This document shows positions 1,680 through 43,391 of a DNA stretch of 43,391 bases, piece after piece. A program made the translations under genes and the position numbers. Below the pieces are notes generated by a model. It worked only from the letters and a program-made list of their open reading frames with translations. It searched no databases and had not been told where the DNA came from. The stretch is taken from the IMG/VR virus record IMGVR_UViG_3300020202_000035, positions 1 to 43,391 of that record; one strand, written 5' to 3'. Position 1 is the stretch's first letter; each line of letters opens with the position of its first letter. This DNA comes from a virus.

Positions 1680-2312
1680 ATGAGCAACTCAAACGAAGTG
1701 AAGCTACCAGACCTAAAACGCTGCCCTTGTGGAGGGGAGGCAATGCTCATGGAGCGTCGATCAATAGATGTTCCAAGCCTCTTTTTTGTACGCTGCGCTA
1801 AATGTCATGGCGAATGGAATAGGAGGTATGAAGTATCCCGCGCAATCGAAGAGTGGAACGCTCGAACCCCTCTCCCGACAAGCGATGCAGTAACACCTAG
1901 CGACTCCCAAGGCCATGCGGGAGATTGTACGGTTTATTCTGATCCGATTAACGGGCAACCTTTTGATGGTATTTGCACTTGTGGGTATGGCTTCAAATCC
2001 TTGCGCGAAGGAGATCCTACGAGAATGTGTTCCGAGGCTCGTCTTATCGCATCAAACGAAGGACAACCCCCTCTTGCGGAGAAGGCGGGAAACTCCCCCT
2101 CCGTATCTGCCCTCCTTTTGGCTTTAGAAGAGGCTAGGAAGGCATTGGAACCTTTCACTGAGTTGAAGTGCATCTGCCATGAGGCTTACAAAGCAAGAAA
2201 GCTATCAGATCCTCAATGCTATCCTTGCGATTTAGTCTACGAGATCAGGGACGCCATTTCCGCCCTCTCTTCTATTAATAAAGTACTCAAAAACAAGAAT
2301 TTGGGGGAGTAG
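1680..2312 (+). CDS. Lar-like restriction-alleviation zinc protein with a longer C-terminal region
   Basis: A 210-residue protein. Residues 13-62 match the Lar-type pattern: CPCGG (C15, C17), a beta strand with R-C-A-K-C (C39, C42), then AIEEWNAR. Lar of the Rac prophage reduces type I restriction, and many phage proteins share this small zinc domain. Here the first motif is CPC, not the usual CPxC, one residue short. A second cysteine-rich part follows (CTCGYGF near residue 100, CICHEAY near 163, YPCDLVYEIRDAISAL near 185). It may be a fusion. The stop lies inside the 5' arm of the hairpin described at 2303-2363. Confidence 0.68.
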   Translation: MSNSNEVKLPDLKRCPCGGEAMLMERRSIDVPSLFFVRCAKCHGEWNRRYEVSRAIEEWNARTPLPTSDAVTPSDSQGHAGDCTVYSDPINGQPFDGICTCGYGFKSLREGDPTRMCSEARLIASNEGQPPLAEKAGNSPSVSALLLALEEARKALEPFTELKCICHEAYKARKLSDPQCYPCDLVYEIRDAISALSSINKVLKNKNLGE

Positions 2313-2363
2313 CCAGCGTTTCCCCGCAACCAAGAATCATCCGTCATTTAACCAAATAAGATT
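2303..2363 (+). promoter_or_regulatory. Recurrent hairpin leader, copy A (upstream of the 72-aa gene)
   Basis: GGGGGA at 2303-2308 pairs with TTCCCC at 2320-2325. Downstream comes TCCCCGCA, ten bases, ATCC, GTC, then TTTAACCA, and the ATG at 2364. The same order occurs upstream of 41358 and 43169. There is no Shine-Dalgarno-like GGAGG at the usual distance in front of the ATG. Confidence 0.62.
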
Positions 2364-2582
2364 ATGGCAGGATCACTAAGTCACATTGTAGCTCATGACG
2401 GAACTTTCCGCATGGGGCTGATTGAAAACCTTGGAGATGCTCACGAGGCACTCGATGAGTGTTTCAAGATCATCATGGAACTCACTGGAGGCGATAAGGA
2501 AAAGGTGAACGAGGTTTGCCGACGATTGAGGCTTCCTAGAATAGAAGCAAACATGAAACCTGGAGGCAGCGATGCTTTATGA
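2364..2582 (+). CDS. Small conserved phage protein (SLSHIV / LIENLGDAHEALDEC type)
   Basis: A 72-residue protein with an N-terminal SLSHIVAHDGTFRMGLIENLG segment and helical ALDECFKIIMELTGG. This style recurs in small phage proteins, but I know no function. It follows leader copy A, which carries no Shine-Dalgarno sequence. Its stop (TGA) overlaps the next ATG, so the two are probably coupled. Confidence 0.72.
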   Translation: MAGSLSHIVAHDGTFRMGLIENLGDAHEALDECFKIIMELTGGDKEKVNEVCRRLRLPRIEANMKPGGSDAL

Positions 2583-5326: not shown

Positions 5327-6438
5327 CCAACCCCCAATAGAGTTAAATTTGAATTAGACGCCACTGCGGCGGCTGGAGTGAAATCCACCATAAGCGTGAT
5401 CATCGTGCATCGGTGAGCCACCGCCGCGTTAGCTCTTACCCCAACTTCCGCAGAGTCTAAATCTGAGGTCGTCCAAGGTAAGCCCGATGTCGGGTTTACC
5501 GTGTGAACATTTTGGATCGCTTGATAAGTGCTGCCATGGTCTCGGTTTGTACTCGTGTCGTTATCTGTGCCATTAACTCGGAGACGCAATCTGAATGCAG
5601 AAGTTCCCCCTTCATCTCTACACACGATATAAGGCTGCACGGCGTTGATCGTGCCTGAAATTCCAGCGCTTGCGCAGGACTCGAACGTTACGGTCTCTGC
5701 ATTGCCACTCGTCGAAGTATTAATAATAGAGGTATCTCCATCATGAGGAATCTCATCAACGTTTAGGTAATCGTTCGTCCATGCCGTGTAAGCTCCATTT
5801 CCAGTGACTTGCATGCGCACAAGCTGTCCCGCTCCAGGAAAAGAGGTGTCATGCACTGCGACATCATCGTAGTAAAAATTGACCGTATTCCCGTTTCGAT
5901 TTGCGTGCTTGCCGATACGCATTTGACCATGTTGATTAGTTGAAAAATTAGACGTGCCAGAAATCTCACTCGTCCCATCGATTTTAATTTCGTAGGATGC
6001 ACTCGCTCCAGTCCCAACGGTAAACTCGATTAGATACCAGGTATCTTGAGATAAGACAGTCGCACCCGTAGCGACTAACGTGTTTGAGGCGTTGTAGGCC
6101 GACAAATTTCCGCTACTATCGATTCTCATTTCGAATTTCAAAGCGGCGGTTGAATCAAGTAATCCGAGAATTGGCTCACTGTTAGCAGAGGGTTTCGTCC
6201 CATAACGAAAATAAACTCGAAACCATAGCGTGTTTACCGCCCAATTAATTGCCTGAACACCAACGGACGTATTGATCCCGCGAATCATGTAGTAACCAGC
6301 CCCCGTGGTTGTAGGGTTAACCTGTAAAGCACGTGCTCCCGTTCGCACAGTTGTCCCCTGAACCGAGAATGTTCCAGAGGTAGAGTTTGCCTCCGTATTA
6401 TCCGCAGCTTCCCACCCGCATATATTCAGGTAAGGCAT
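5323..6438 (-). CDS. Adhesin-like virion protein with a LamG/concanavalin-like domain
   Basis: A 371-residue protein. Residues about 10-200 read as a jelly-roll lectin domain of the LamG/concanavalin type: TGARALQVNP, a strand-rich middle with WFRVYFRYG, DTWYLIEFTVG, then FYYDDVAV near residue 195. A second beta-rich domain follows. Such proteins sit at the tips or sides of phage tails and bind surface glycans. It ends the block of tail genes before lysis. Host binding is inferred from the fold and location. The C-terminus (NLTLLGVG) is a common ending of phage structural proteins of this kind. Confidence 0.7.
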   Translation of the reverse strand: MPYLNICGWEAADNTEANSTSGTFSVQGTTVRTGARALQVNPTTTGAGYYMIRGINTSVGVQAINWAVNTLWFRVYFRYGTKPSANSEPILGLLDSTAALKFEMRIDSSGNLSAYNASNTLVATGATVLSQDTWYLIEFTVGTGASASYEIKIDGTSEISGTSNFSTNQHGQMRIGKHANRNGNTVNFYYDDVAVHDTSFPGAGQLVRMQVTGNGAYTAWTNDYLNVDEIPHDGDTSIINTSTSGNAETVTFESCASAGISGTINAVQPYIVCRDEGGTSAFRLRLRVNGTDNDTSTNRDHGSTYQAIQNVHTVNPTSGLPWTTSDLDSAEVGVRANAAVAHRCTMITLMVDFTPAAAVASNSNLTLLGVG

Positions 6439-8183: not shown

Positions 8184-8678
8184 TTATTCCTCGTAATTTC
8201 CAGAAACGCCAAAGAAGAAATTGGTAGCCGCCCCAAAAGAGATATTTTCAGTTCGTGTATGCCTGAGATATTGCGCTCCATTGAGCTCGCGTCGGATGCT
8301 CACCTGATTGGTTTCCGTCCCGTTGAGTGGCACGACGATCTTCAAGTCCGAGTTCGTCGCAGAGTCGAAATTCACGCCATCCCACGACCGAGAAAAATAA
8401 AAGGTCGCCGTCGCTGTGCCGTCGATGTTCGTGGCGGCCGCAGTTCCCGAGCAACGCGCGAAGATCGAGACATGATTCAAAATTGCGGCATTCCCATCGC
8501 TCCGAGCCCACACATCCAAAACCACTCCCTGCGTGGCGTTGGTCGTGTTCCCCGCGACCTGATTCACCGCATTGGAAATCGTGGCCTGATGATTTTTAGT
8601 CTTCGCATATACCAGCGTGACAAGGACGCAAAAAAATAAGACGGTTAGTTTTTTCATATATTTGTGGCTGTAACTCAT
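8184..8678 (-). CDS. Secreted-type protein with signal peptide inside the tail operon
   Basis: A 164-residue protein. Two starts are possible: 8678, in an ATGA overlap with the preceding stop, or 8657, which gives MKKLTVLFFCVLVTLVYA directly, a clear Sec signal. Neither has a strong ribosome site, so coupling at 8678 is preferred. The rest is beta-rich with ATFYFSRSWDGVNFDS and NFFFGVSGNYEE. A Sec signal on a gene among virion genes is unusual: the product may be periplasmic, or part of envelope or superinfection functions, not the particle. Confidence 0.68.
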   Translation of the reverse strand: MSYSHKYMKKLTVLFFCVLVTLVYAKTKNHQATISNAVNQVAGNTTNATQGVVLDVWARSDGNAAILNHVSIFARCSGTAAATNIDGTATATFYFSRSWDGVNFDSATNSDLKIVVPLNGTETNQVSIRRELNGAQYLRHTRTENISFGAATNFFFGVSGNYEE

Positions 8679-10611: not shown

Positions 10612-13600
10612 TTACTCTTCTTCTTCTGTCACGTTCTCGACAAACCGATTCACGTCTTTAGCGGCGTTGGTTACGGGCACGCCTGAGACCGCACCCGCAG
10701 CGCGAGCTCCCGACCAAACCACATCATTCCAAGCAGCTTCTTCATCGAAGAGCGCTTTACCTGCTTTGGTAGATTCTCTTGAAAATTCCTTCAAAGCAGC
10801 GCCAGCAGGAGTAAGTTTATCGATGCTGTCCGCTAATCCATGCCCCTTCAATACAGAGGATGGTATATTTCCCAAGACGGGAATCCAAGATATCGGAGCT
10901 TCTAAAAGCTTTACAAGAAGATCCCACCAATCAGGCATTTCCCCTCGCAAGACGCCCCGCACAAGTTCCTCAACCAAAACGGCCAGAAGAATCGATTGCG
11001 CCAAATGACTGGCATACTCCTTGTTCGAAATCGCACCCTCTTGCCATGCCCGATGTTCTGTTTGCAGGATGGACCCGTATTTGAAACGCCAAGACATCAG
11101 CATCACGAATGAACGCAACAGTTTGTTCGGGCTTCGCTGAATCCAATTTCGATCAGACGTTAATCCCGTAGGCTGGGTTTCTTGCACAATGGCATCTGCG
11201 TATTTCACCGCTTCCGCAATCTGTTCGTCCTGAGTCGTATTCGCATCCGATTTCGTTGCCAGATACTTCTGGAAAGCACCCATCCATGTTGGACCAACCA
11301 CACCTCGATCTGACATTTGCATCATCTTGAATCCGAAATCCTGAGCATCTTTCAGCGTGATCGTTCGATTGCCGAGCGTGAGCTTAAATTTCTTCAACCC
11401 CTTCATTCCCTGAGCTGCTTCAAATGCATCTCGATCAATCGCCTCTTCACGAGTCCGAAGCACACTCGAAAGCTTCGTGATCTCATTCCATTTTTCAGTC
11501 TTAAATCCGAACGTCGTCGTGAGTTGTCCCGTAATCCCAAATGATTTGAAACCCTCCAACATCCACTTCCATCCGATACGCCGAGCCGCAATGATTAACC
11601 CCGTCTTTTGAACAGCAGCCGTCGAAACCTTATAACCCAAAAGCAAGTAGGTTGAGAGCTTTCGATTGAACTCGATGAATTTTTCAAGACCTTGCGTCGT
11701 ATCCGATTCGATAAAGTTTGGACCGCTATAAGGATTAGCTGTCTTAGAAACCCAATCCTTCAAATTCTTCCATTCTCGATTTCCAACCTTATCGATGAAA
11801 ACACTCTTCCATTGCGGATCATTGATGAGCTTGTTCATGTCTCGAAGCACTCGAGAATGCGTGATATATCGAGTAGTCTCCGAAACGTGCCGATAGAGCA
11901 CATCGAGACTCAATTTCGGAGCGTCTTTAGTTCCGCCAACGCGCCCCTTTGTCATTCGATCCGAAGGCTTGGCTGAGCGCAGCACAGCTTGCTTCTGCAT
12001 AATGTCTTCTTCTTCATGCCGCGCTGCCTTGTCTGAAAGTGTGGAGTCGTAGATCAGAGGAAAGTAACCGCCCGCCAACGTAACCGTTGATCCCTCCTTA
12101 GTTTTATAAACTCTTTCCGCAGGCTGAACCTTTCCAATGTGCCGATTATAGTTGGCAAAGTGAACCTGATCCAAAGGCTCATAAAATTCATTGATCGAAT
12201 CCCAGATTCCCTGGATCGCTTTCAATTCCTTTTCGGTAAAGAACTGAGAGACAATATCAATCTGCTCCTGAGAGATCAGCAAACCATCTGAGAGCGCCTT
12301 TGCATTCTGCAAGTTCCCTGTGTTCAGCAGCACCATCACCAACTTCTCAGGAGTCCACCGCGATTCACCCGTCGCCCTTGCTTTTTCAGGAAGAGGCAAG
12401 TCCTTGATATTAAAATGAGCGCCATTCTCTTTTCGGATTCTCGCAACCGCCTCAGAAATGGTGTCAAAGTGCCCGCGTGCCTTTTTATAGAACCCGCTTT
12501 CCATCTCAAGCTGTTCGGTATCGGCCTGCGCCACAAGCTGGTAGAGCTTTCGTTGAGGACCCATCTTTCCAGTGGTACGCATCTGAAAGGCATCCGCAGT
12601 CTCAAACATGAATTGCGCATGGATATTGCTCCCCAACAGAGCTTCAAGAGCAACACGTGGGTAATAAAGTTTGTCCCCTTTTTGCGTCACTTCACGCTTC
12701 TTGAGTCGATTCAACCTCTCGATCGCTTGCCGTTGAAAATCTGTAAACCGAACGAGTTCTTTCCCGCTCAGTGACGCCATCTGATCACGTCCGCTTGTAA
12801 ACATCGCCTCGACAAATCCATCGAGTTCGCGAAGTTCGTCCATTGTAAGCATGCGACGGTAATCCCCTTGCTTTTCACCGAGCCTCACGAAATCGGGCAT
12901 CATCGCAAATAGAATCTCATCCAGCTCCTTGATGTTATGCAGATCGTAAGTCTTCTGATTGGCTCTCTCTGCAAGCTTGTATCGGGAAACAACCTCGATA
13001 ATAGGCTCAAGGTACGAGTTCTCGACGCCCTTCAGCGTGGATTCAAACTTCTTATGGGCGTATCGGGTTTGAAGCTTTGTCAGTTCCTCACGCACCTTAA
13101 TCGATTCCGCGACCAAAGCATGATTGAGTAATTGCTTTTGACGAGCTCTGTATGCAGATTCCTTCATGCCTTTGTTCAGAAGGCGAATCACCTCTCGACC
13201 CCATTTCCGCTCCGTGCGCGCAAACACATCGTACCGCGTAGCTCGACCCACTTCCATTTGCCCGATCGCTTCTTTCGCGGCGTCCTTATAAACCTTTTCA
13301 AGCACCCTCACACTTCGTCCCGCCGTCTTCATCTTCAGCTCTGCCGCCAAGGCTTGGGCTTCCGCAATTAAATACGCAAGAGAAGCGTCGCTGTGAGTCG
13401 CCGCATCGGCACCCGTCGCAGCGTTTCGCACATCATGTCGGATTTTAACTTCTTCCTCTCGAATCCTTTCCTGTTTTCGTTGCGCAATCATTTGATCGCG
13501 AGTGAGCTCGTTCTGCATCGACTCGATCAAAGCCTCAGGAGATTCATACTCAAAACCAATAGCCAGAGTCTCGATACTCAGAATCCCATCTTCTCGGAAG

Positions 13601-16600
13601 ATAGAAGGAAACTTGGCATGAAGCTCCTTCGCAACATTCTCGCCATACTTCTCACGAAACTTATCTAAAGAAACGCCATCTTTTTCAGCACGCTTCAAAA
13701 GAGCGTAGAAAGGTTCGCTATCCACCTCCTTCATCGCTTCGCGAACGAGAGCTTCCTCGCCTCCAATGACCTTAAAATAGTTTTTCAGAATCCGCTCCAC
13801 GTGGCGATCCTCTTCCGATTTTTGATGCTTCTCGCGGGCATCCCTTAACTCGCGACGTTTCGCCTCATCATTCGTGATAAGGTCGATCACGTCTGACTTC
13901 GTCGCGTAGTATTCACGCGCCTCTTTGATTTCATTCTGGCTCGCTAGCATACGGTCAAAGATCGCGCTGAGCTCAGGCGTCACCGTTACAAAGCTTTTAA
14001 TCGATCGGTAAATTTCCAGGAGCCAATTTCTCAGATTGCGGAAAACCTCGACCAATTCCACACTCGGAGCTTTGCCCTCTTTCAAATAGCTTTCGAATGC
14101 ATCGGCTACCTTCTCCTCTTGAGCTCGGGAGAGCTCGCCGTTTTTCGATCCAGACCACTCCACCAGGCTTTGGTAATCGGCAATGACTTGCTGACTGGCA
14201 AGGCCGCTTTCGATGAGCTCCCTCATCATCTTCAATCGGAAATGAAGCACTTCATGGCTCAACGTCGAAAGATCCGCCTTTTCAAAAAGATGGATGATCG
14301 TTTTCGCACCCTGAAATTCAATCGCGCCGCGCGGATCCTCCTCGCCTTGAAGCATCGTTCCTTCATTGACACCAAGCATCCATTGAAGTAACTTATCTTT
14401 GGAGCCTCTTAGTCGGTCCCGCTTTGCAAGCGGGGTGCCCGCTTGGAGGCTTTCCACTTTCTGGACTTCAGTTGCCTCCGTTACGTGAGCATCATAGAAG
14501 AAATCAATGACCTGGACGCCCTCTTTCTCTTCATGAGCTGTCATCCTCACAAATAAATCTTCACCATCCAGTTTCGTTTTAACCGCATAATTATTCCACT
14601 TGATGGCGCGTCCTTCGACTGTGGACGTTTCCTGATAGATTGGAATCGCGTTTTCAACGAGTTGAGAGATTCCCGCAAAAAGCTTCAAATGCCGAACATC
14701 CGCGCTATGGTTTTTAACTTTCTTAAACCCTCCACGCACCAACCTCATCTTTCGACCGTTCGCCTTAACAACAAACTCTTCACCCTGCGGATAAATAGAT
14801 TTTGCCCACTTTGTAAGTTCTTCGAAATCACTTGGAGCGTTGGAGGTAATCTCCACTGCTGGCATTGCCAAAAGTTTCTCTTTAGCTTGCTTGAAAGGAT
14901 TACTCTGAAATCGAACGTCAGACTTCGAAGGCGTAAACGGCTCCCCGTTCTTATGCGTGATCTTGATTATAGAAGGATCGAAGACGACGAAGTTGCTTGT
15001 GCCTTTTCCCTCACCGCGTGACCCCTGATCCAGATAACGAATCCCTTTAATACCCAAGCTGGAAAGATATTCGGAAGCTCTCTTTCTCGCCTCGGAAATG
15101 ATAATCTCCTCAGTGTTTTGAAGGACATGCGTGATATCTCGATAAATTAACTCTCCAGTTGCATGTTCTGGGATATAAAAGACTTTTCCAACGCCTTCCT
15201 TATCTCTGTAATCTTGCTGGAGTTTGGATATGATTTCTTTAATTTCAGCGCTCTGCTCAGAGATCGGCTTATCCCAATCCAAGAAGGTCTTGATCGCTTG
15301 ATCGTCGATATCAACCGTATAAACATTTCCCAGATCTTTTTCTTTGTATTCAACTCTCTCTTTGAGGATTTTAACCTCATCAAGTAATTTTTGCGCTTCT
15401 TCACTGTCTCGATCCAGATCACGGGATTCAAGATAACCACCCACTGAGTACAGATCTGGTTTAGTGATAATTCGGATGGCCGCCGCTGTAAGAGGATCAA
15501 GAGATTTTATATCCACTTCCTTGCCATCCAACTTGTATGTTTGCTTTGTTCCACCGAGAACCAGCTTATAGTCTTCAGCGACCTCTGGATTTTCCGCAAA
15601 GTACAAACCCCATCCATATACTTGGTTGCCTTCGCCAGTCCCAATATTTTCCAGTTTGAACTGATCTTCAATTTCATGCGGCGTGCCATGATAAGCAGGC
15701 TGAAAGAATGTTTCGTCCTCTTCCAAATTCCTCTTCGTCACCTCGGATCGATTAACAGCCGCAGGAGTCTGAGAGATCCGTGCGATGTATGCTTTCCCAT
15801 CCTCGCCTGTTCGTAGTTCAATTGGATTATCGACAAGAAATTCCTCCACGGTTTGTCCACGCTCCCGCGCGGACATAAACAAAGCCGAATGAAGAAGCTT
15901 TAATTGAAGATCTGTTTCTTGAGCGCTAAACCCTGCACCTCCCTCTTCTTTCGGAAGAATCAATTTTTCTCGAATCCGTTTGATAGGCTCAGGAACCTCA
16001 GCTTCACGTGACACCTTTTGAAGCTCCGCTCGAAAATCCTCGACGTGTTGCTTCACCGAATCTTTTTCGTACTCCACGCCTTCTTCAAAATCCTTGCGAA
16101 TTGCATCAAACACTGGATGCTCACGATACTTCGCTATGAATTTGCCTGTACTAATCTGAACATCGCCACCCAAGCGAATCGCTTCTTCCAGGTTCTCTAC
16201 ACTGGACCCGACATCATTTAAGAATTGAGCCAAAGCTGTTTGCCCTTCTCCTTGAGTCTGAGCCCCTTGAAAGAAGACTTCTGCAAGCTGTTCAGCTCGC
16301 ACTTCTAAAGTTGTCGGATGGCCTGCCTCTTTCAAGGCTCCGTCAATAAACACCGCGACACTTTCAGGATCGCGTTTTGTCATCGGCACGCCATCGGCCA
16401 ATGCTTTTAGTTCATCTAAGCTCGACAGATCACCTTCAGATTTTCGCACATTCTGAAGCAGCTCGTTCGTTTTACGCAAATCCTCGTTCATCGAATCGAT
16501 CACTTCTTGGCTCACCACAGGATTTTCCTGCATAGAGGAAGCAGCAGGCGTTTCCTCTTTCGTTTCAACATCTGAAGCCAAGGGTGTCATCGCCACGTTG

Positions 16601-17856
16601 ATCGTTCCGCCCACTGCGCCGCCTAAAGTGAAAGATGCCATGTATCTCTGCCATGCATCTTTGAATCGCTCTGAATCATCCCGAATCCCGAGAGCCGCCA
16701 AGTCTGTCGCCACCTCTTGCCCTAGTTCTTCGAGCCCTTCTGAGGCAAACCCTGTCGCCCCGCGACGAAGGAAACGGTTGCGAATCGCCCTAGACAAAAC
16801 GCTCTTTAAGACGGGATTCTCGGTCAAAAACTCGTTGCCAGGGATCGCTTCGATTGCACCGCCAATCGTTCCTACAATCGACGCCTCCGTGATTGCAACC
16901 TGATTGGCCTCTTGCGGCGTGGCGCCTTTATTGATCAAATCTTGATAAGACTCGTTGTACGCATCACCTGCCATAAGAGCGCCGCTCGAAGTCATGAAGA
17001 TCCCAGATTGAGCCGCTAAAGATCCGCCGCGAGTTAAAGCTGCAAGACCAATTTGCCCAAGAACTTGAGGAACCAGTTCGCTGCCACGAGCGACCCACCA
17101 CGTCGGATTGCCAGGCTGGAAAACTCCTTTGCTCACCGATTCGCTTGGAGGATTCTCTTCAATCCCTCGCTGTGCTTGCAAAAGGTTAAACTCTCCGATC
17201 CGTGCCAAAGATGGATTGACCGTTCTTTGAAAGGCTAGATCCAGTCCTGCCGCAGACCCCATCACTCCGTAGGCTCCCCTTGCCAAACCGCGCTTGATCT
17301 CTTCGCCTTTTCCAAGCTCGCCTTGTGTTTTGCTCTTCCGTGCTCGAATCGCGTCCTCAAGCTTCTTTAATGCGTCGTAACTATCCCGCGACTTCGCCAT
17401 GTTCACAGGGTCAGCTAACCAACGCACCAGGTGCGGATTCTTAAACTTCCCAGACTCATCCCTCTCAACAAGGGATCGCAAAATCTTCTTCGCTTCATCC
17501 GCATCTTCAAAATCCTTTTGGTGTTCCAAGGCTAATTGGAAAGGCACCCCATGTTGATTGGCCAACTGAGCGACACGAGAAGCTGTCTCGGGATTCACCC
17601 CCCGAAAAGCTTCCAGAGCCCATTTAATATTACCGCCAGAAACTCGAACCGCTTGATCGAAAGCTTCGCTTGGAGTACTCGCTAACTCCGAGACAATGTC
17701 TTCAGGAAACACGCTTTGTTTGATCGAACTTGGCAATGGATGAGAAGAGTTCTCAACTGGATCACTTGTCTCCAATGGATTAAAACCAGGCTTCTCTGAA
17801 GCAAGAGAAAGAGGAGACTCGACTGGTTCACTTGTTTCCGTTGGATCGAAGGCCAT
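10612..17856 (-). CDS. Giant polyvalent internal virion protein (2414 aa) with ART, LPD3/PBECR-like, HExxH and LPD38-like parts
   Basis: The largest gene, 2414 residues. The start at 17856 is chosen for its AAGGA ribosome site and its fit after the 17859 stop. Features in order: acidic, proline-rich N-terminus; Gly/Ala-rich, hydrophobic stretches about 270-430 that might insert in membranes; an ADP-ribosyltransferase-like domain from about 722 (YHGTPHE, then GWGLYFAENPEVAEDY) to about 1000; an LPD3/PBECR-like region near 1020-1130; a zincin motif HEVLH at 1201-1205; long coiled coils; and a C-terminal polyvalent region with YFPLIYD. Such proteins are injected with phage DNA and act on the host. 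Which activities are live is not known. Confidence 0.85.
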   Translation of the reverse strand: MAFDPTETSEPVESPLSLASEKPGFNPLETSDPVENSSHPLPSSIKQSVFPEDIVSELASTPSEAFDQAVRVSGGNIKWALEAFRGVNPETASRVAQLANQHGVPFQLALEHQKDFEDADEAKKILRSLVERDESGKFKNPHLVRWLADPVNMAKSRDSYDALKKLEDAIRARKSKTQGELGKGEEIKRGLARGAYGVMGSAAGLDLAFQRTVNPSLARIGEFNLLQAQRGIEENPPSESVSKGVFQPGNPTWWVARGSELVPQVLGQIGLAALTRGGSLAAQSGIFMTSSGALMAGDAYNESYQDLINKGATPQEANQVAITEASIVGTIGGAIEAIPGNEFLTENPVLKSVLSRAIRNRFLRRGATGFASEGLEELGQEVATDLAALGIRDDSERFKDAWQRYMASFTLGGAVGGTINVAMTPLASDVETKEETPAASSMQENPVVSQEVIDSMNEDLRKTNELLQNVRKSEGDLSSLDELKALADGVPMTKRDPESVAVFIDGALKEAGHPTTLEVRAEQLAEVFFQGAQTQGEGQTALAQFLNDVGSSVENLEEAIRLGGDVQISTGKFIAKYREHPVFDAIRKDFEEGVEYEKDSVKQHVEDFRAELQKVSREAEVPEPIKRIREKLILPKEEGGAGFSAQETDLQLKLLHSALFMSARERGQTVEEFLVDNPIELRTGEDGKAYIARISQTPAAVNRSEVTKRNLEEDETFFQPAYHGTPHEIEDQFKLENIGTGEGNQVYGWGLYFAENPEVAEDYKLVLGGTKQTYKLDGKEVDIKSLDPLTAAAIRIITKPDLYSVGGYLESRDLDRDSEEAQKLLDEVKILKERVEYKEKDLGNVYTVDIDDQAIKTFLDWDKPISEQSAEIKEIISKLQQDYRDKEGVGKVFYIPEHATGELIYRDITHVLQNTEEIIISEARKRASEYLSSLGIKGIRYLDQGSRGEGKGTSNFVVFDPSIIKITHKNGEPFTPSKSDVRFQSNPFKQAKEKLLAMPAVEITSNAPSDFEELTKWAKSIYPQGEEFVVKANGRKMRLVRGGFKKVKNHSADVRHLKLFAGISQLVENAIPIYQETSTVEGRAIKWNNYAVKTKLDGEDLFVRMTAHEEKEGVQVIDFFYDAHVTEATEVQKVESLQAGTPLAKRDRLRGSKDKLLQWMLGVNEGTMLQGEEDPRGAIEFQGAKTIIHLFEKADLSTLSHEVLHFRLKMMRELIESGLASQQVIADYQSLVEWSGSKNGELSRAQEEKVADAFESYLKEGKAPSVELVEVFRNLRNWLLEIYRSIKSFVTVTPELSAIFDRMLASQNEIKEAREYYATKSDVIDLITNDEAKRRELRDAREKHQKSEEDRHVERILKNYFKVIGGEEALVREAMKEVDSEPFYALLKRAEKDGVSLDKFREKYGENVAKELHAKFPSIFREDGILSIETLAIGFEYESPEALIESMQNELTRDQMIAQRKQERIREEEVKIRHDVRNAATGADAATHSDASLAYLIAEAQALAAELKMKTAGRSVRVLEKVYKDAAKEAIGQMEVGRATRYDVFARTERKWGREVIRLLNKGMKESAYRARQKQLLNHALVAESIKVREELTKLQTRYAHKKFESTLKGVENSYLEPIIEVVSRYKLAERANQKTYDLHNIKELDEILFAMMPDFVRLGEKQGDYRRMLTMDELRELDGFVEAMFTSGRDQMASLSGKELVRFTDFQRQAIERLNRLKKREVTQKGDKLYYPRVALEALLGSNIHAQFMFETADAFQMRTTGKMGPQRKLYQLVAQADTEQLEMESGFYKKARGHFDTISEAVARIRKENGAHFNIKDLPLPEKARATGESRWTPEKLVMVLLNTGNLQNAKALSDGLLISQEQIDIVSQFFTEKELKAIQGIWDSINEFYEPLDQVHFANYNRHIGKVQPAERVYKTKEGSTVTLAGGYFPLIYDSTLSDKAARHEEEDIMQKQAVLRSAKPSDRMTKGRVGGTKDAPKLSLDVLYRHVSETTRYITHSRVLRDMNKLINDPQWKSVFIDKVGNREWKNLKDWVSKTANPYSGPNFIESDTTQGLEKFIEFNRKLSTYLLLGYKVSTAAVQKTGLIIAARRIGWKWMLEGFKSFGITGQLTTTFGFKTEKWNEITKLSSVLRTREEAIDRDAFEAAQGMKGLKKFKLTLGNRTITLKDAQDFGFKMMQMSDRGVVGPTWMGAFQKYLATKSDANTTQDEQIAEAVKYADAIVQETQPTGLTSDRNWIQRSPNKLLRSFVMLMSWRFKYGSILQTEHRAWQEGAISNKEYASHLAQSILLAVLVEELVRGVLRGEMPDWWDLLVKLLEAPISWIPVLGNIPSSVLKGHGLADSIDKLTPAGAALKEFSRESTKAGKALFDEEAAWNDVVWSGARAAGAVSGVPVTNAAKDVNRFVENVTEEEE

Positions 17857-17858
17857 GA

Positions 17859-19577
17859 TTATTTCTTCCTTCGAAGTTGACCGTTCCACATAAACAGAGC
17901 GCCTGAAGGAAGCTTATTATATTCTTCTTCTGTGATATTTCGGGACGTGTCCGCAAATTTCACTTGCTGAGGAGTCACGAAATTCACCCCTACATTTGTC
18001 GGATATGAAGCCGACCCATCATCAACGTCCACCGATCCTTCAACCGCTCCACTTTCGATCTCAAATTGTTTAGCAGTTCGCTCGTTAAACGGGATCCAGT
18101 CGTTACCAGTATTATCAAGAACAATCTCCTTTAGGAGCTCTCTACGAATATCCCGAGCCGTTTTCCAATCCGTTCGTTTTTCATCAGGGACGGCTCTCAA
18201 TCGATCAGCATAGACTGAAAGATATTGATTTAATGCATCGTGCTTTCTCTGAGCAACAGTATCGGAATCGCTCTCCTTGATTTGAAAAAAGCTGAGCGTT
18301 TTCGCCTCTTGTTTAGCATCGTCAAATGCCTTTTTGAATGCATCGGTTTCTTTGGTGCCGCCCTTCTTCAAATCATCCTGGAGCTTTTTCAAAAAAGAAT
18401 ACTGGTCCTGGGAAAGGTACGGGGCATGCTCGGGAAGCGACACGTTGCCTAGATTGTGGATATTAGAAATCAGCTTTCCGTAATGGGATTCTTGTTGTTC
18501 GCCCCTTGCTTTTTTCGCAGTGGCCTCCGTGTGCTTTGCCCACTTGATCTTGTCCTCATGCTTGAACCATTTCGGCGGCGGAAGCGTCGGGTCCTGCTCC
18601 TTCTTTGCCCATTCCGCCTCATAAGCTTGTTGATACTTTAAGGTTTCCGCTGTCTTCTTTTCCTCGAACCTAGCTTTCGATAGGCTCATGAATTGTTGAC
18701 GTTCCTGCGGATCCTTAAACGTTTCATCAGCAAACTTCGCCGCGTCTTCAATAGTTGCACCAGGTTTACTTGTGATCTCGAGAGAAGCCCCGTTAATAAC
18801 TTCGTCGCGAACCTGCTTCTGCAAACGATCTTGGAAGATTCGATACGCGCGCGGCTCAAAATGTTCTTTATGCTGGTCCAAGAAAATCAAAGCTTCCTTC
18901 GACGATGTTCCTTCGATGCTTTCCAGGATGTTCGAATAATAATCATTAAGCGCTTCTGCCGTCTTAGCTTTCACCGCTTCCGTTCCATATGGCGACCAAG
19001 TATTCCTAGTATTTTGTCGGATGGTAAACGCACCCTCTTCAATCTTCTGTGGATCGTTGCGATACGCGATCGCATCCTGGATCGCATTATAATTTTCGGC
19101 TGACTTCGTGATCTCTCTCGCGCGCTTGAGCTCTGAAAGCTGGAAGTTCTGCACCCGACCCATGTGATCGTCTTCGATTTCAAGCCAGAGATTCTTGAAC
19201 ATTTCTTTCTGAGCGCCGTTCTTCAATTTCGACATGGACGCGTCACGGATCGATGCCATCCGCTGCTTCACTTCGCCCTCCACGTTCATCGCGTTCAATC
19301 CCTGCCGTTGGAAAATATCTTTCGTGAGAAAGTCGCGTGCTTCTGTCTTACTCGCATTAAGCGCTTCGCGAACCAGCGTTTTATTCTCTTCCTCTTGAAT
19401 GTCTGTTCCAATCTGATGAAGAGTATTTCCAACCCTCGCTAAGCCTTGCGCCGCATCTCCCAAAGCCGCAGCTTGAGCCCCTCCAAAAGAAGCGCCCGTT
19501 GCGTTCGCGCTGAAACGCGATGCAGGAAGCGGAGAATTTTCAACCTGGCCAGGAGTGTATTTGGGTATCTTTGGCAT
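17859..19577 (-). CDS. Internal virion protein (helical, 572 aa)
   Basis: A 572-residue protein, mostly helical and charged, lying between the small internal protein and the giant polyvalent protein. This is the position of T7 gp15-like core proteins. The N-terminus (PKIPKYTPGQVENSPLPASRF) and an Ala- and Gln-rich stretch (GGAQAAALGDAAQGLARVGNTL) are typical of such proteins in BPP-1-like phages. No catalytic motif was found. It probably helps form the ejection conduit or is ejected with the DNA. Its ATG overlaps the previous stop by one base (TAATG). Confidence 0.72.
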   Translation of the reverse strand: MPKIPKYTPGQVENSPLPASRFSANATGASFGGAQAAALGDAAQGLARVGNTLHQIGTDIQEEENKTLVREALNASKTEARDFLTKDIFQRQGLNAMNVEGEVKQRMASIRDASMSKLKNGAQKEMFKNLWLEIEDDHMGRVQNFQLSELKRAREITKSAENYNAIQDAIAYRNDPQKIEEGAFTIRQNTRNTWSPYGTEAVKAKTAEALNDYYSNILESIEGTSSKEALIFLDQHKEHFEPRAYRIFQDRLQKQVRDEVINGASLEITSKPGATIEDAAKFADETFKDPQERQQFMSLSKARFEEKKTAETLKYQQAYEAEWAKKEQDPTLPPPKWFKHEDKIKWAKHTEATAKKARGEQQESHYGKLISNIHNLGNVSLPEHAPYLSQDQYSFLKKLQDDLKKGGTKETDAFKKAFDDAKQEAKTLSFFQIKESDSDTVAQRKHDALNQYLSVYADRLRAVPDEKRTDWKTARDIRRELLKEIVLDNTGNDWIPFNERTAKQFEIESGAVEGSVDVDDGSASYPTNVGVNFVTPQQVKFADTSRNITEEEYNKLPSGALFMWNGQLRRKK

Positions 19578-28173: not shown

Positions 28174-28409
28174 TACTGAGCCGACGTGTATCCGAGCACC
28201 GTTGCCTTTTGGACAGGAGCCGCCTCTTGAATCCCAAGCGGCGACGTCAGAATCGTCGAGTTCCTACCCTTGGCAGCTTTCGCTCGACGCTCTTCATCCG
28301 ATCGCGCCTTTTTCGATTCCGCATTATCCTTAGTCGTATCGACAATCGGAGGAGGCGCAGACGGAGCAGCAGGAAGGCTTGGAGTCTTTGGAGATGAAAA
28401 CATGCACAT
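28173..28409 (-). CDS. Small proline- and alanine-rich protein between terL and portal
   Basis: A 78-residue protein: Pro- and Ala-rich N-terminus (MCMFSSPKTPSLPAAPSAP), a charged helix (ESKKARSDEERRAKAAKGRN), then STILTSPLGI. Proteins with this M-C-x-F-x-x-P-K-x-P start and a C-terminal TILTSPLG are frequent between terminase and portal genes of podoviruses. Two starts are possible (28409 and 28403). The ribosome site AAAGGA lies inside the hairpin at 28411-28435. Confidence 0.76.
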   Translation of the reverse strand: MCMFSSPKTPSLPAAPSAPPPIVDTTKDNAESKKARSDEERRAKAAKGRNSTILTSPLGIQEAAPVQKATVLGYTSAQ

Positions 28410-30661: not shown

Positions 30662-30702
30662 AGTACGCGATTCGGTCAAATCGCAGACGAAGGCAAGCTT
30701 TT

Positions 30703-30721
30703 CAGACTAAATCAGACTAAA
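30703..30721. repeat. Paired CAGACTAAA repeats, left attP arm
   Basis: CAGACTAAA occurs at 30703-30711 and 30713-30721, one helical turn apart. Two more copies lie at 30914-30934, on the far side of the tRNA-derived core. Four directly repeated copies arranged as two pairs around the core fit arm-type binding sites of a tyrosine integrase. Confidence 0.66.
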
Positions 30722-30843: not shown

Positions 30844-30882
30844 GCGAGCGTAGCTCAGTCCGGTAGAGCTCCACCTTGCCAA
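30844..30882 (+). other. attP: attP core: 5' half of a tRNA-Gly(GCC) gene
   Basis: The sequence follows tRNA positions 1-38: acceptor strand GCGAGCG, U8, D arm GCUC...GAGC with GG in the loop, anticodon stem CCACC and anticodon loop UUGCCAA with anticodon GCC (Gly). Homology stops at the end of the anticodon loop; no 3' half follows. The integrase gene is directly downstream, so this is the likely attachment core, with crossover in the anticodon loop. The coordinates of the exact identity block need the host gene. Confidence 0.78.
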
Positions 30883-30913
30883 TTTATATTCCTACCTATG
30901 AGAGCGGAACTTT

Positions 30914-30934
30914 CAGACTAAATTTCAGACTAAA
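30914..30934. repeat. Paired CAGACTAAA repeats, right attP arm
   Basis: CAGACTAAA occurs at 30914-30922 and 30926-30934, just before the integrase start at 30942. It matches the pair at 30703-30721. The position over the integrase leader would let the integrase repress its own gene. Confidence 0.66.
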
Positions 30935-30941
30935 GCAGACC

Positions 30942-32099
30942 ATGAAGCGCAAAATTCCCAACGTTTTCGAGACTTCTATGCATGGAAGCAGCAGTTGGGT
31001 TGCGGATCTGCGTTATCATGGCGGGCAACGGGAGTATTTCAAAACTAAAGCTGAAGCGCAAGGACGAGCGGAAGAAGTCTTTAACAAGATTTTCAATCCA
31101 GGAGTAAAGGTCGACAACGTTCCGCCTGAGCTCATCCTCGACGCGAAACGAGGAATGGAAGTGCTTCAGCCTCTTGGAGGAAGCCTTCTCAAGGCCTGCG
31201 AGTTCTACGCCGATTATTTGAAGCAGAAAGCTAAGGGCAACGTCACACTCAGAAAGGCCGCGGACGATTGGCTTGAATACAAGAAAATGGAAAATGTCTC
31301 TTCGAGCACCATCACCAACCACACGACGCGACTAAATTCGCTATGCGCTCGATACGGAACCAGGTTGATTCACGAGATCGGCTTCAAGGAGATTCACGCC
31401 TGGCTCCACGGACTCGAGCTCTCCACTTATGGTAAAATCGATTACCGTAAGACAGCCAACGAGCTTTTCGAATGGGCGATTTTCCCTCAAGAGTGGATCG
31501 ACAAGAACCCATGCGCTCGGATCAAATTGAAGCTAAAGGGTGAAAAAGAAGTTTCCATCTTCTCGATTAAGGAAGCTCAGGCGCTCTTCCATGCCGCGAA
31601 AAAATCAGATCCTGATATTTTACGCTACGTCGTTCTATGCATGTTTGCAGGCCTTCGACCAACTGAAGCTTTCAAAACTACAAGGGAAGATATCCGAACC
31701 AAAACCAATGACATTCGCGTTCACTCAGGCAAGACAGGCCGCTTCCGTTATGTTCGCATGGAAGAAGGAGTTGCCAAGCTTTTAACGAAAGGCAAATGGA
31801 AGGGCGCTCTAATTCAGGACAACTTCGCGAGGCGATGGGATCTTTTGCGCTACAACCTTGGATACAAGGTTTGGATTGATCCGCGATACCTTATAGGGCG
31901 AGAGGACAAAGTGAAGCGTTCACCGTGGCCTCATGACGTCATGCGACATACGTATTGCAGCTACCATCTTGCCTATTTCGAGAACGAGGCTTTGACCGCA
32001 CACTTGGCAGGCCATGACGTGAAGGTTTTGCGGAAGCACTATCGACAATCAATACCAAAGGCAGAAGCGAAGAAGTTTTGGGATCTGCTTAAAGATTAG
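30942..32099 (+). CDS. int: Tyrosine recombinase (integrase)
   Basis: A 385-residue site-specific recombinase that integrates and excises the phage. An N-terminal arm-binding part (about 1-80) and a SAM-like core-binding domain (about 85-190) precede the catalytic domain. Active-site residues are visible: Arg239 (AGLRP), Lys264 (SGKTGR), His331 and Arg335 (HDVMR), His358 (LAGH) and Tyr367 (HYRQ). The start is set at the ATG at 30942, because the longer frame begins with TTG inside the tRNA fragment. It ends 11 bases inside the convergent hicA-like gene. Confidence 0.92.
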   Translation: MKRKIPNVFETSMHGSSSWVADLRYHGGQREYFKTKAEAQGRAEEVFNKIFNPGVKVDNVPPELILDAKRGMEVLQPLGGSLLKACEFYADYLKQKAKGNVTLRKAADDWLEYKKMENVSSSTITNHTTRLNSLCARYGTRLIHEIGFKEIHAWLHGLELSTYGKIDYRKTANELFEWAIFPQEWIDKNPCARIKLKLKGEKEVSIFSIKEAQALFHAAKKSDPDILRYVVLCMFAGLRPTEAFKTTREDIRTKTNDIRVHSGKTGRFRYVRMEEGVAKLLTKGKWKGALIQDNFARRWDLLRYNLGYKVWIDPRYLIGREDKVKRSPWPHDVMRHTYCSYHLAYFENEALTAHLAGHDVKVLRKHYRQSIPKAEAKKFWDLLKD

Positions 32100-33700: not shown

Positions 33701-33729
33701 TTGACACGTTTCTCGTCACGGTGTAAATA
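33701..33729 (+). promoter_or_regulatory. Early rightward promoter (sigma70-like)
   Basis: A perfect -35 TTGACA (33701-33706) is 17 bases from TAAATA (33724-33729). The palindrome at 33720-33733 covers the -10, so bound repressor would block it. It would drive the ribbon-helix-helix, excisionase-like and probably downstream early genes. Confidence 0.66.
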
Positions 33730-33733
33730 CACC
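33720..33733. promoter_or_regulatory. Operator-like palindrome, copy 1
   Basis: GGTGTA-AA-TACACC, two perfect six-base arms with a two-base centre, overlaps the -10 of the rightward promoter. The same palindrome with centre TA occurs at 34045-34058. Two copies in front of two successive regulatory genes point to one shared repressor. Confidence 0.75.
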
Positions 33734-33741
33734 TTCAACAT

Positions 33742-33933: not shown

Positions 33934-34045
33934 GGAAGAGAAAGATCGCCTTGTTAAAATGGCGCAGAAAGACGGTCGAAGTCTTTCTAATTTCATCAAG
34001 AGAGAAATTCTTCGAATCCCTTCGAAGAAAACTTTTTGCCAATAG
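33872..34045 (+). CDS. Ribbon-helix-helix DNA-binding protein (rightward, second; overlapping)
   Basis: A 57-residue protein in a frame different from its neighbour: KTKLVGIWINKEEKDRLVKMA, then GRSLSNFIKREILRI. The strand-helix-helix pattern, with 'VGIWINKEE', is similar to the preceding protein, so the two look like tandem paralogues or partners of a heterodimer. It overlaps the first gene by 62 bases and ends at the second operator. Confidence 0.72.
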   Translation: MNILKKTKTRKTKLVGIWINKEEKDRLVKMAQKDGRSLSNFIKREILRIPSKKTFCQ

Positions 34046-34058
34046 GTGTATATACACC
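34045..34058. promoter_or_regulatory. Operator-like palindrome, copy 2
   Basis: GGTGTATATACACC is a perfect 14-bp palindrome directly before the ATG at 34060 of the excisionase-like gene. It shares both arms with 33720-33733. Binding here would block the start site, and could also stop transcription from upstream. Confidence 0.76.
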
Positions 34059-34059
34059 C

Positions 34060-34266
34060 ATGCGATTCGATAAATCCATTCTGACTCTGAAAGAGTTTGC
34101 GGCCGAAGTCGGCCAGCATCGCGACACCGTGATACGCTACATCATCCTTAAAGGAAAATGTCGTTTCACGCGAAATGGTCCGCGTGGCCAGTACCGCATC
34201 CGCCGAGAATGGGCGGATGAATATCACAACCATCACACCTTTGGCGGAAACGCGTACGGCAAATGA
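34060..34266 (+). CDS. Excisionase-like or MerR-type helix-turn-helix protein
   Basis: A 68-residue protein with SILTLKEFAAEVGQHRDTVI (helix-turn-helix) followed by a wing and GQYRIRREWADEYHNHH, the order of small excisionase-family (DNA-binding, winged HTH) proteins. Such a protein could steer the integrase toward excision or act as a Cro-like regulator. The ATG at 34060 is chosen over a TTG upstream at 34036. The operator ends one base before the ATG, and no ribosome site is left, so initiation may be leaderless. Confidence 0.76.
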   Translation: MRFDKSILTLKEFAAEVGQHRDTVIRYIILKGKCRFTRNGPRGQYRIRREWADEYHNHHTFGGNAYGK

Positions 34267-41222: not shown

Positions 41223-41303
41223 ATGGATGAGAATACAGCACTAACAATTTTAGGGTGCGTTTTTATCATCTGCACAACGCTAATGACTTTGAAAAAGAAT
41301 TAA
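41223..41303 (+). CDS. Single-segment membrane micro-protein (26 aa)
   Basis: A 26-residue ORF with one hydrophobic stretch (TALTILGCVFIICTTLMTL). A still shorter 18-residue ORF (41174-41230) overlaps its start by 8 bases and could couple its translation. It ends just before the second hairpin leader. Evidence is weak. Confidence 0.34.
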   Translation: MDENTALTILGCVFIICTTLMTLKKN

Positions 41304-41305
41304 GA

Positions 41306-41357
41306 GGGGGAGGTTGTAACATCTTCCCCGCAAGAAACACGATCCATCGTTTAACCA
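41306..41357 (+). promoter_or_regulatory. Recurrent hairpin leader, copy B (upstream of the C5 methyltransferase)
   Basis: GGGGGAG (41306-41312) pairs with CTTCCCC (41323-41329). Then TCCCCGCA, nine bases, ATCC, ATC, TTTAACCA and the GTG start at 41358. The same arrangement is at 2303-2363 and 43117-43168. No Shine-Dalgarno is at the normal position. Confidence 0.62.
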
Positions 41358-42122
41358 GTGAATGAAACAAAGCCAACACACCTCGATCTCTTTAGCGGCA
41401 TCGGCGGCTTTAGCCTCGCAGCCGAGCGTTGCGGATTCCGCACAATCGGATTCTCAGAGATCGACCCCTACGCCTCCGCCGTCCTCAAAAAACACTGGCC
41501 AGACGTCCCTAATTACGGAGACATCCGAAACATCCCATGCGAAGAACTCCGAGGAACTATTGCTCTCCTTACAGGTGGGTTTCCGTGCCAGCCTTTTAGC
41601 GTTGCCGGGTCGAAACGTGGAGATCGAGACGAGCGCCACCTATGGCCGCTCCTTGCCGAAATCATTGGCAAAGTTCGACCCCGTTTCTGCCTGTTGGAAA
41701 ACGTTTCAGGGTTGCTTTCAATTTCTAACGGAAGGGTCTTTGGAGCCATTCTCGGAGACTTGGCCTCGCTCGGGTATGATGCTCTCTGGAATTGCGTACC
41801 AGCCTCAGCCGTTGGTGCGAATCACCAAAGAGACCGAGTCTGGATTGTTGCCTACAATGCGGAAGGCTTTAACGGGAAGCCTGTCACCGCATCGATGCAA
41901 GGACAAGTTCAACAATCTGGAAAGCGTTCTATCGCGCCAGATGTGGCCGACACCAGACGCGAGTCAAGCCCCACCTTGGAGCAAGTAATTGGTGGGCAGT
42001 TGAACCCTCAATTTGTCGAGTGGTTAATGGGCTACCCAATAGATCACACCGCCTTAGATGCCTCGGAAATAGTATCGTCCCGCAAGTCGCGGAGATCTTC
42101 TTCAAAGAAATTAGAAAGCTAG
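41358..42122 (+). pseudogene. C5-cytosine DNA methyltransferase, frameshifted before its C-terminal motifs
   Basis: The 254-residue frame carries motif I DLFSGIGGF (10-18), motif IV GGFPCQPFS with catalytic Cys77, motif VI ENV (114-116) and motif VIII QRDRVW (157-162). The expected C-terminal part is in another frame: NWWAVEPSICRVVNGLP and RLRCLGNSIVPQVAEIFF (motif X) at about 41987-42127. One extra base, for example in the C run at 41969-41972, would join both into one 256-residue enzyme. Thus the gene is probably broken, or the base is an assembly error or is bypassed by frameshifting. GTG start after leader B. Confidence 0.82.
41362..41988 (+). CDS. Long second reading frame inside the methyltransferase gene
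   Basis: An ATG four bases after the methyltransferase GTG opens a 208-residue frame that overlaps the enzyme almost completely. It encodes TWPRSGMMLSGIAY where the enzyme frame encodes LASLGYDA and onward, then LLPT and WPTPDAS. Proteins with such patterns occur as annotated phage proteins. The same single base that would repair the enzyme would join this frame to GGQLNPQFVEWLMGYP, giving 253 residues. It may be a true overprinted gene, or only a shadow of a highly conserved enzyme. Confidence 0.38.
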   Translation: MKQSQHTSISLAASAALASQPSVADSAQSDSQRSTPTPPPSSKNTGQTSLITETSETSHAKNSEELLLSLQVGFRASLLALPGRNVEIETSATYGRSLPKSLAKFDPVSACWKTFQGCFQFLTEGSLEPFSETWPRSGMMLSGIAYQPQPLVRITKETESGLLPTMRKALTGSLSPHRCKDKFNNLESVLSRQMWPTPDASQAPPWSK

Positions 42123-42145
42123 TCTAACACCTAAATGAATTATTT

Positions 42146-43126
42146 ATGAGCACCAACAAATCAGAGGGAGAGCATCACGGCTCCACCGCAGTAGACGCCG
42201 TTAAATCTCGTGCGCTTTGGGATATAAGAGCCCTTCAAAGTGAGAATAAGTCTCTCAAGGCTCAAGTCTCCTCTCTACAAAAAGAGCGAGACGAGGCCAG
42301 AGGTTGTCTAGACCGTGCCAATAAGCTCACAGGAGCCCAAGCAGATGAAAATGCAGAGATCGTAAGGAAGTTGGAGGCTCAAGTCTCCTCCCTTCAATCC
42401 TCCCTAAAAAAAGCAGAGGAGAAGATAAAGGAGTTAGAGGAAGCATTGAGCGAAGATCCCACTGAACCCCCTCCGTTCACCGTGACAGATATATTCATGG
42501 AGAAAGCTCGTAAGGAAGGAACGCTTAAAACATATAAGCTGGTGCCTGTCAGCCCATCCCCACAGAAGGAAGTCGCTCCCCTGTCCGCTGTAGCCTCGGC
42601 GAAAGAGGATCGCTCCAAACCGTCAGAGGTGGAGGAACTAAGAGGTATTAAATGGCTGATCTGGTCTAATGAACATGAATTATGGTGGAGTCCTGACTCT
42701 AAAGGTTACACACCCCACATCAAGGAGGCTGGAAGATATTCTCTCGATGAGGCGTTGGATATTTGCCAAGACAAGCTTTACCGTCGAAAGCTCCATAATA
42801 TCGGAACGGAGATTCCAGCCGAAGTCATGGTTCCATCCCCTGAATTGATCGAAGTGCTGCAAGCCGAGGGAAAAGCTAATTCCACGGATGACGTGAAACT
42901 CCCCACAGTAGAAGACGTTCAGGCCATATATGCCGAGGGAAACGCCACACCCACGGAGAAGACGGATAACTCCCAAAACAATTCCTTGGACGTCCCCTTA
43001 GAGATTGCAGAGGGGCTATATAAGGCATTGAACGATGCTTGGGAGACTGGGTGTCTTACAAAAGCTCAAGATGTTGCCCTAGCAGCTTATGACAAATGGA
43101 AAGAGCAACAGAATTTGGGGAAGTAA
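42146..43126 (+). CDS. Coiled-coil phage cargo protein with KWLIWSNEH / GYTPHIKEAGRYS domain
   Basis: A 326-residue protein. Residues about 25-100 form a coiled coil with two similar stretches (KAQVSSLQKE and EAQVSSLQSS). After a Pro-rich linker comes RGIKWLIWSNEHELWWSPDS, then GYTPHIKEAGRYSLDEALDIC (about 166-212), a pattern I associate with small conserved phage proteins. The C-terminus is a helical domain (about 280-326). No enzymatic motif is seen. The end NLGK and the hairpin that follows resemble the end of the gene at 1680-2312. Confidence 0.72.
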   Translation: MSTNKSEGEHHGSTAVDAVKSRALWDIRALQSENKSLKAQVSSLQKERDEARGCLDRANKLTGAQADENAEIVRKLEAQVSSLQSSLKKAEEKIKELEEALSEDPTEPPPFTVTDIFMEKARKEGTLKTYKLVPVSPSPQKEVAPLSAVASAKEDRSKPSEVEELRGIKWLIWSNEHELWWSPDSKGYTPHIKEAGRYSLDEALDICQDKLYRRKLHNIGTEIPAEVMVPSPELIEVLQAEGKANSTDDVKLPTVEDVQAIYAEGNATPTEKTDNSQNNSLDVPLEIAEGLYKALNDAWETGCLTKAQDVALAAYDKWKEQQNLGK

Positions 43127-43168
43127 TACGTTGTCCCCGCATTACCCCTTATCCCTCGATTTGAACCA
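43117..43168 (+). promoter_or_regulatory. Recurrent hairpin leader, copy C (upstream of the N4/N6 methyltransferase)
   Basis: GGGGA (43117-43121) pairs with TCCCC (43134-43138). The TCCCCGCA motif, nine bases, ATCC, CTCG, ATTTGAACCA and the ATG at 43169 follow. It matches copies A and B. The stop codon of the preceding gene (43126) lies in the loop. No Shine-Dalgarno is present. Confidence 0.62.
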
Positions 43169-43391
43169 ATGAAGCCCTATTACCAAGATAACGCAGTTAC
43201 AATCTATCATGGGGATTGTCGCGCCATCTTACCGACATTGTCACCCGTCGACTTGGTGCTTACAGATCCACCTTATGGGGTAAACCTAGATTACACAGAA
43301 GCAATAGATGACTCCTTTGAAAATTGGATGTCGCTTATGTGTTTTTTAATTCCAAGTGCGACACGCATGTCAAAGACGCTTTTATTAAGCA
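43169..43391 (+). CDS. Beta-class DNA methyltransferase, N-terminal part; gene continues at 1
   Basis: The ATG at 43169 opens the frame that continues at base 1 after circularisation: YQDNAVTIYHGDCRAILPTL then LVLTDPPYG. The segment from 43265 onward repeats 1-127. The start follows leader C. The whole gene is 675 bases including the stop, coding for 224 residues. Its domains are described under 1-579. Confidence 0.9.
   Translation, partial: MKPYYQDNAVTIYHGDCRAILPTLSPVDLVLTDPPYGVNLDYTEAIDDSFENWMSLMCFLIPSATRMSKTLLLS
43265..43391. repeat. Terminal direct repeat, second copy (assembly overlap)
   Basis: Identical to 1-127. It should be removed to obtain the unique 43,264-bp circle. Confidence 0.93.

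Follow-up and report, generated by a model that had tools for sequence, protein, structure and literature searches.

Why are three accessory genes of one phage genome, unrelated to one another, preceded by the same segment of about 60 nt, which runs up to or close to their start codons? The window analysed here, a stretch of 43,391 nt, appears from a 127-bp repeat at its ends to represent the entire circular genome of a phage, and matches of its portal and terminase proteins give it the appearance of an epsilon15-like podovirus. An integrase gene occupies positions 30876–32099, the late genes are read leftward, and a rightward early region, which contains RecT and exonuclease genes, extends from 34.5 kb across the junction to 3.5 kb. 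All three copies of the repeated segment lie within this early region.

Several other features of the genome may be recorded beside this outline. The 5′ half of a tRNA-Gly-like gene (GCGAGCGTAGCTCAGTCCGGTAGAGCTCCACCTTGCC) is found at 30846–30934, next to the integrase gene, and repeats of TTTAGTCTGAAA occur at 30922–30934 and 30700–30711; together, they probably represent attP and the integrase arm sites. The palindromes GGTGTAAATACACC (33720–33735) and GGTGTATATACACC (34045–34060), located next to genes for a ribbon-helix-helix protein (33742) and an HTH protein (34060), are probable operators of a lysogeny/early switch. A late polyvalent protein of 2425 amino acids, encoded on the minus strand at 10612–17889, carries LPD3 and LPD22 domains as well as a weak match, below the cut-off, to an ADP-ribosyltransferase domain.

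A repeat at three gene starts

The genes downstream of the copies are accessory, and two of the three encode DNA methyltransferases (Table 1). The third product, an orphan protein, has no Pfam or PHROGs match and a single weak phage match (E 0.03). In the N6/N4 methyltransferase, the PF01555 match falls on the part encoded at 64–579. The ORF upstream of copy 1 is Lar-like (restriction alleviation). A 27-nt repeat of 81% identity (1660–1686 and 42126–42152), ending in ATTTATGAGCA, marks the starts of the ORFs upstream of copies 1 and 3.

Table 1. Positions of the repeat copies, their putative hairpins and the genes downstream of them
Feature	Coordinates	Strand	Remarks
Copy 1 (AGAATT to AACCA)	2296–2354	+	precedes the 72-aa orphan gene at 2364
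Copy 2	41296–41357	+	abuts the GTG start at 41358 (C5 methyltransferase)
Copy 3	43110–43168	+	abuts the ATG start at 43169 (N6/N4 methyltransferase)
Block TCCCCGCA, copy 1	2321–2328	+	
Blocks ATCCGTC and TTTAACCA, copy 1	2339–2354	+	
Putative hairpin, copy 1 (GGGGGAG...TTTCCCC)	2303–2325	+	contains the stop codon of the Lar-like ORF
Putative hairpin, copy 2 (GGGGGAG...CTTCCCC)	41306–41329	+	
Putative hairpin, copy 3 (GGGGAAG...TGTCCCC)	43117–43138	+	one broken pair
72-aa orphan	2364–2582	+	downstream of copy 1; putatively controlled by it
C5 cytosine methyltransferase	41358–42122	+	GTG start; PF00145, 4e-45; putatively controlled by copy 2
N6/N4 methyltransferase	43169–43391, continuing across the circle junction to 579	+	putatively controlled by copy 3

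Comparison of the three regions yields the consensus AGAATT, 1–6 nt, GGGG(R)AG, 10–12 nt, TCCCCGCA, 9 or 10 nt, ATCCNTC, 1–3 nt, TTKAACCA. The order described in the initial annotation, in which a G-rich arm (GGGGRAG), a loop, TCCCCGCA, 9 or 10 nt, ATCCNTC and an AACCA block precede a start codon, is thus present three times on the plus strand, and conservation reaches about 7 nt farther upstream, as far as AGAATT. Two details required correction. The last block, given there as TTTRAACCA, has this form in copy 3 only (TTTGAACCA) and reads TTTAACCA in copies 1 and 2; it directly precedes the start codon in copies 2 and 3 (0 nt), as had been claimed, but ends 9 nt before the ATG in copy 1. The spacers between the blocks are dissimilar in sequence and differ in length by 1–3 nt. 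Conserved blocks set between diverged spacers suggest that selection has acted on the blocks.

The copies are also placed in a constant manner relative to the genes upstream. The hairpins of copies 1 and 3 contain the stop codon of the preceding ORF (2310–2312 and 43124–43126), and the repeat unit takes in the last codons of that ORF. In copy 2, a 26-aa ORF terminates just upstream of the hairpin, the last base of its stop codon being 41303, two nt 5′ of the G arm. Placement is strictly start-associated rather than random: a pattern with flexible gaps matches the genome three times, each time at one of the copies and in the forward direction, the reversed control gives no match, and all three copies are in sense orientation, no further copy being present on either strand.

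The repeat is real and well beyond chance. When the whole genome was scanned by leave-one-out alignment, the best non-self match of each copy was another copy, with scores of 25 and 22 for copy 1, 23 for copy 2 and 24 for copy 3, as against best scores of 15–17 in shuffled genomes; the pair of copies 2 and 3 taken by itself scores 17, which is borderline. Composite patterns point the same way, with three plus-strand occurrences each of GGGG-N10..20-CCCCGCA (shuffle mean 0.02) and ATCC.TC.{0,4}TT.AACC (shuffle mean 0.025), although these null values somewhat overstate the case since the patterns were derived from the copies themselves. The leave-one-out scan is free of this problem and is therefore the fairer test. 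The pair GGGG-N10..18-CCCC alone is not significantly enriched (3 against 1.1, p about 0.1).

Start context, predicted structure and signals

The initial annotation had regarded the leader as standing in place of a Shine-Dalgarno sequence. None of the starts at 2364, 41358 and 43169 indeed has a Shine-Dalgarno core (GGAG, GAGG or AGGA), but the accompanying statement that most other genes possess one was not borne out: among 49 hand-called genes, the core precedes 13, or 18 if AAGG is also allowed, compared with 11% and 17%, respectively, of internal ATGs. As the majority of genes in this genome lack such a core, its absence is not a special feature of the three. Moreover, AACCA occurs near the starts of six genes, three of them the copies, where 0.6 are expected, and AACC precedes ten starts (the copies included) where 2.2 are expected. 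The last block is therefore in part ordinary start context.

The stem of the presumed hairpin is short and weak. It would consist of four invariant G-C pairs, a G-U/A-U pair, a pair broken in copy 3 and a G-U/G-C pair, that is, four G-C pairs and one to three weaker ones, in arms of 5–7 pairs. The minimum free energies equal those of shuffled sequences (z = 0.05, -1.19 and -0.08). In native context, the predicted pairing probability of the G and C arms amounts to 0.28 in copy 1 and 0.8–0.97 in copies 2 and 3 (0.8 in copy 2). No compensatory, double-sided change of the stem is found across the copies, which are too few for covariation, and the accessibility of the start codons is average rather than unusually high. 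A search of the whole window against Rfam 15 at the gathering threshold returned tRNA only, and at relaxed E-values no match overlapped the elements; the cis-regulatory leader RNAs of that collection resemble the present element in their position before start codons.

Neither a sigma-70-like hexamer pair, by a consensus that may not be the host's, nor an intrinsic terminator (a G+C-rich hairpin followed by a T run) was called at the three sites. The arms can be written as inverted half-sites, namely GGGGGAG/GGGGAAA, GGGGGAG/GGGGAAG and GGGGAAG/GGGGACA. Several known classes of element were considered and set aside. For hairpin promoters used by an N4-like phage RNA polymerase, no RNA polymerase match was obtained among the larger late proteins searched. 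Integron attC sites do not fit, with RYYYAAC present in copies 1 and 2 only and GTTRRRY in none. As to REP/RAYT systems, the phage genome has no PF01797 Y1 (TnpA-type) transposase, although the host might supply one.

A second repeat occurs among the late genes. The 13-mer GGGGAAAGACGTC is found in three exact minus-strand copies (28463–28451, 26216–26204 and 10611–10599), 42–57 nt upstream of the late-gene starts at 28409, 26159 and 10569; it is the sole 13-mer occurring three times in the genome, a case also met in one of ten shuffles. A role as late promoter or operator is possible.

Relatives and comparable repeats in other phages

Recurrence of the motif in related phages, which the initial annotation had proposed to look for, was not found among portal relatives, in a profile search or in database scans, although very near records may be missing from these sets. 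No match with the full set of blocks emerged when IMG/VR viral contigs were scanned with exact and relaxed patterns, or when GTDB genomes were scanned with a pattern; seven matches of one IMG/VR scan proved to be a single unrelated repeat family. The profile search, covering 1.4 Mb of loci, returned only pattern-selected matches, the best of which (E 4e-4) is an Aquificaceae contig devoid of the G arm. No close relatives were retrieved via the exonuclease, the closest relative in the portal protein alignment has 51% identity, and 50 of these portal records contain no match to the element.

Two phages with a related portal protein nevertheless carry repeated leaders of their own. In G010 (IMGVR_UViG_3300042691_026652; L166), a leader of about 95 nt without a Shine-Dalgarno sequence occurs twice (6239–6349 and 8488–8598), each time reaching the start codon of an early gene, and the two gene products are little alike; one of the copies has the promoter-like spacing TTGCAC-N17-TATTGT. 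In G032, two unrelated genes are each preceded, at a distance of about 42 nt, by the 14-mer TTAGGTGCGCGTGA. As in the present phage, the repeated leaders precede genes that are not evidently paralogous. In contrast to it, they have other sequences, no GGGG/CCCC hairpin and two copies each, and the pair in G032 stands before late-type genes. Repeated start-associated leaders of phage-specific sequence could be a habit of this phage group, an idea for which two copies per relative are only suggestive.

Start-codon-linked repeats are best described from cluster K mycobacteriophages (PMC3203893, PMC11373665), where the role of the SAS repeats has been open since 2011 (PMC3203893, PMC11373665); in the mycobacteriophage Adephagia, the ESAS repeat is taken to combine a putative promoter with an inverted repeat (PMC11373665). 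The present element resembles SAS/ESAS in arrangement. Like them, it is a short repeat within one phage, held in one orientation, confined to the non-structural half and situated a few nt upstream of the start codons of several unrelated genes (here 0, 0 and 9 nt). About half of the SAS sites have an imperfect inverted repeat upstream of them, with a spacer that varies, and the upstream stop codon can fall within the SAS element, as it does here. It is not a member of the family, whose defining sequence features it lacks. SAS has an AGGAG Shine-Dalgarno core and 11–19 copies per genome, whereas three copies without a core are found here; the imperfect inverted repeat of ESAS has 17-bp arms and a SigA-like promoter, compared with 5–7 pairs and no recognisable promoter in the present case. 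The SAS consensus GGGATAGGAGCCC, with up to two departures allowed, has no match in the genome at fewer than three mismatches; with three mismatches, there are five matches (chance mean 7.3), none of them at the elements. Sequence and phage group thus both differ.

Possible modes of action

Judged from its sequence, the leader of about 60 nt probably coordinates the expression of the three accessory genes. The initial annotation had offered a translation or mRNA-stability element, a protein-binding site or a recombination boundary. A functional regulatory leader agrees with the conserved blocks, the variable spacers and the strict placement at starts, and a special role as Shine-Dalgarno replacement is not supported. 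The explanation ranked first, though adopted tentatively, is a phage-specific, start-associated leader by which the three genes are co-regulated at the mRNA level. The segment lies between the end of the upstream gene and the start of each accessory gene and may form, in the mRNA, a short GGGG/CCCC hairpin followed by the single-stranded blocks GCA, ATCCNTC and TTTAACCA up to the start codon. An RNA-binding factor of phage or host, or a terminating upstream ribosome, could act on this structure, whereby the three genes would be translated or stabilised together. With the upstream stop codon inside the G arm or next to it, a ribosome that terminates there would occupy the arm, and translational coupling is possible.

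Action on mRNA is favoured by several features. All three copies are in sense orientation 0–9 nt before a start and occur nowhere else, conservation continues to the start codon, and the upstream stop is in or beside the 5′ arm in three of three cases. Blocks are kept while spacers differ in sequence and length, as is expected for RNA loops and linkers. For copies 2 and 3, the hairpin is predicted with high probability. Neither a sigma-70-like promoter nor an intrinsic terminator was called at the sites, and in the relative G010, two early genes are likewise preceded by a repeated leader, of another sequence, that extends to their start codons. Against it stand the shuffle-like folding energies, the low pairing of copy 1, the average start accessibility, the broken pair and missing compensatory change, the lack of an Rfam match, and the restriction to three copies in one genome, with no relative carrying the element. 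A stronger version, in which an undescribed cis-acting mRNA element composed of a short hairpin and a conserved single-stranded tail is bound by a dedicated factor of phage or host and switches on a small anti-restriction regulon, in a phage where only a minority of genes have Shine-Dalgarno sites, is considered doubtful.

Ranked second, and rather unlikely, is control at the DNA level. Here, GGGGRAG...CTTCCCC would be an operator, possibly joined to an unconventional promoter, from which the three genes are transcribed separately, on the model put forward for the inverted repeats of ESAS in cluster K mycobacteriophages. The arms do read as inverted half-sites, their position 51–61 nt before the starts and just past the upstream stops suits a promoter, and other repeats stand upstream of starts, GGGGAAAGACGTC before late genes of this phage and the 14-mer in G032; ESAS repeats, too, are now taken as promoter plus inverted repeat (PMC11373665). 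However, no sigma-70-like hexamer pair is apparent at the sites (the host and its promoters may differ), the spacing of the arms varies by 1 bp, and an operator would not require the conservation that continues for 30 nt past the palindrome, as far as the start codon.

Still less probable is a recombination joint, in which the repeats are seams of accessory-gene exchange between phages and the blocks the remnant of an ancestral intergenic segment. The genes bordering the copies are of typically exchangeable kinds (two methyltransferases and the Lar-like ORF), in copies 1 and 3 the unit extends over the final codons of the preceding ORF, and the two ORFs upstream of these copies share a short start region. 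Yet the spacers have diverged too far for the copies to be recent, and the blocks beside them are near-invariant, which implies that something maintains the blocks, and neither an attC-like pair of ends nor a Y1 transposase is present. Chance, that is, three A/C-rich starts that look alike in an AACC-favouring genome with a coincidental G/C pair upstream, would be in keeping with the AACCA enrichment near starts, the unremarkable frequency of the GGGG...CCCC pair and the ordinary folding, but is very improbable in view of the composite patterns, the leave-one-out matches and the location of all copies at gene starts.

The phage offers a small system of three genes in which action on RNA and on DNA could be told apart by a simple reporter assay. 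As an independent, epsilon15-like case lacking a Shine-Dalgarno core, and together with the other repeated leaders in related podoviruses, it suggests that elements of this start-associated, phage-specific kind may have a wider distribution.
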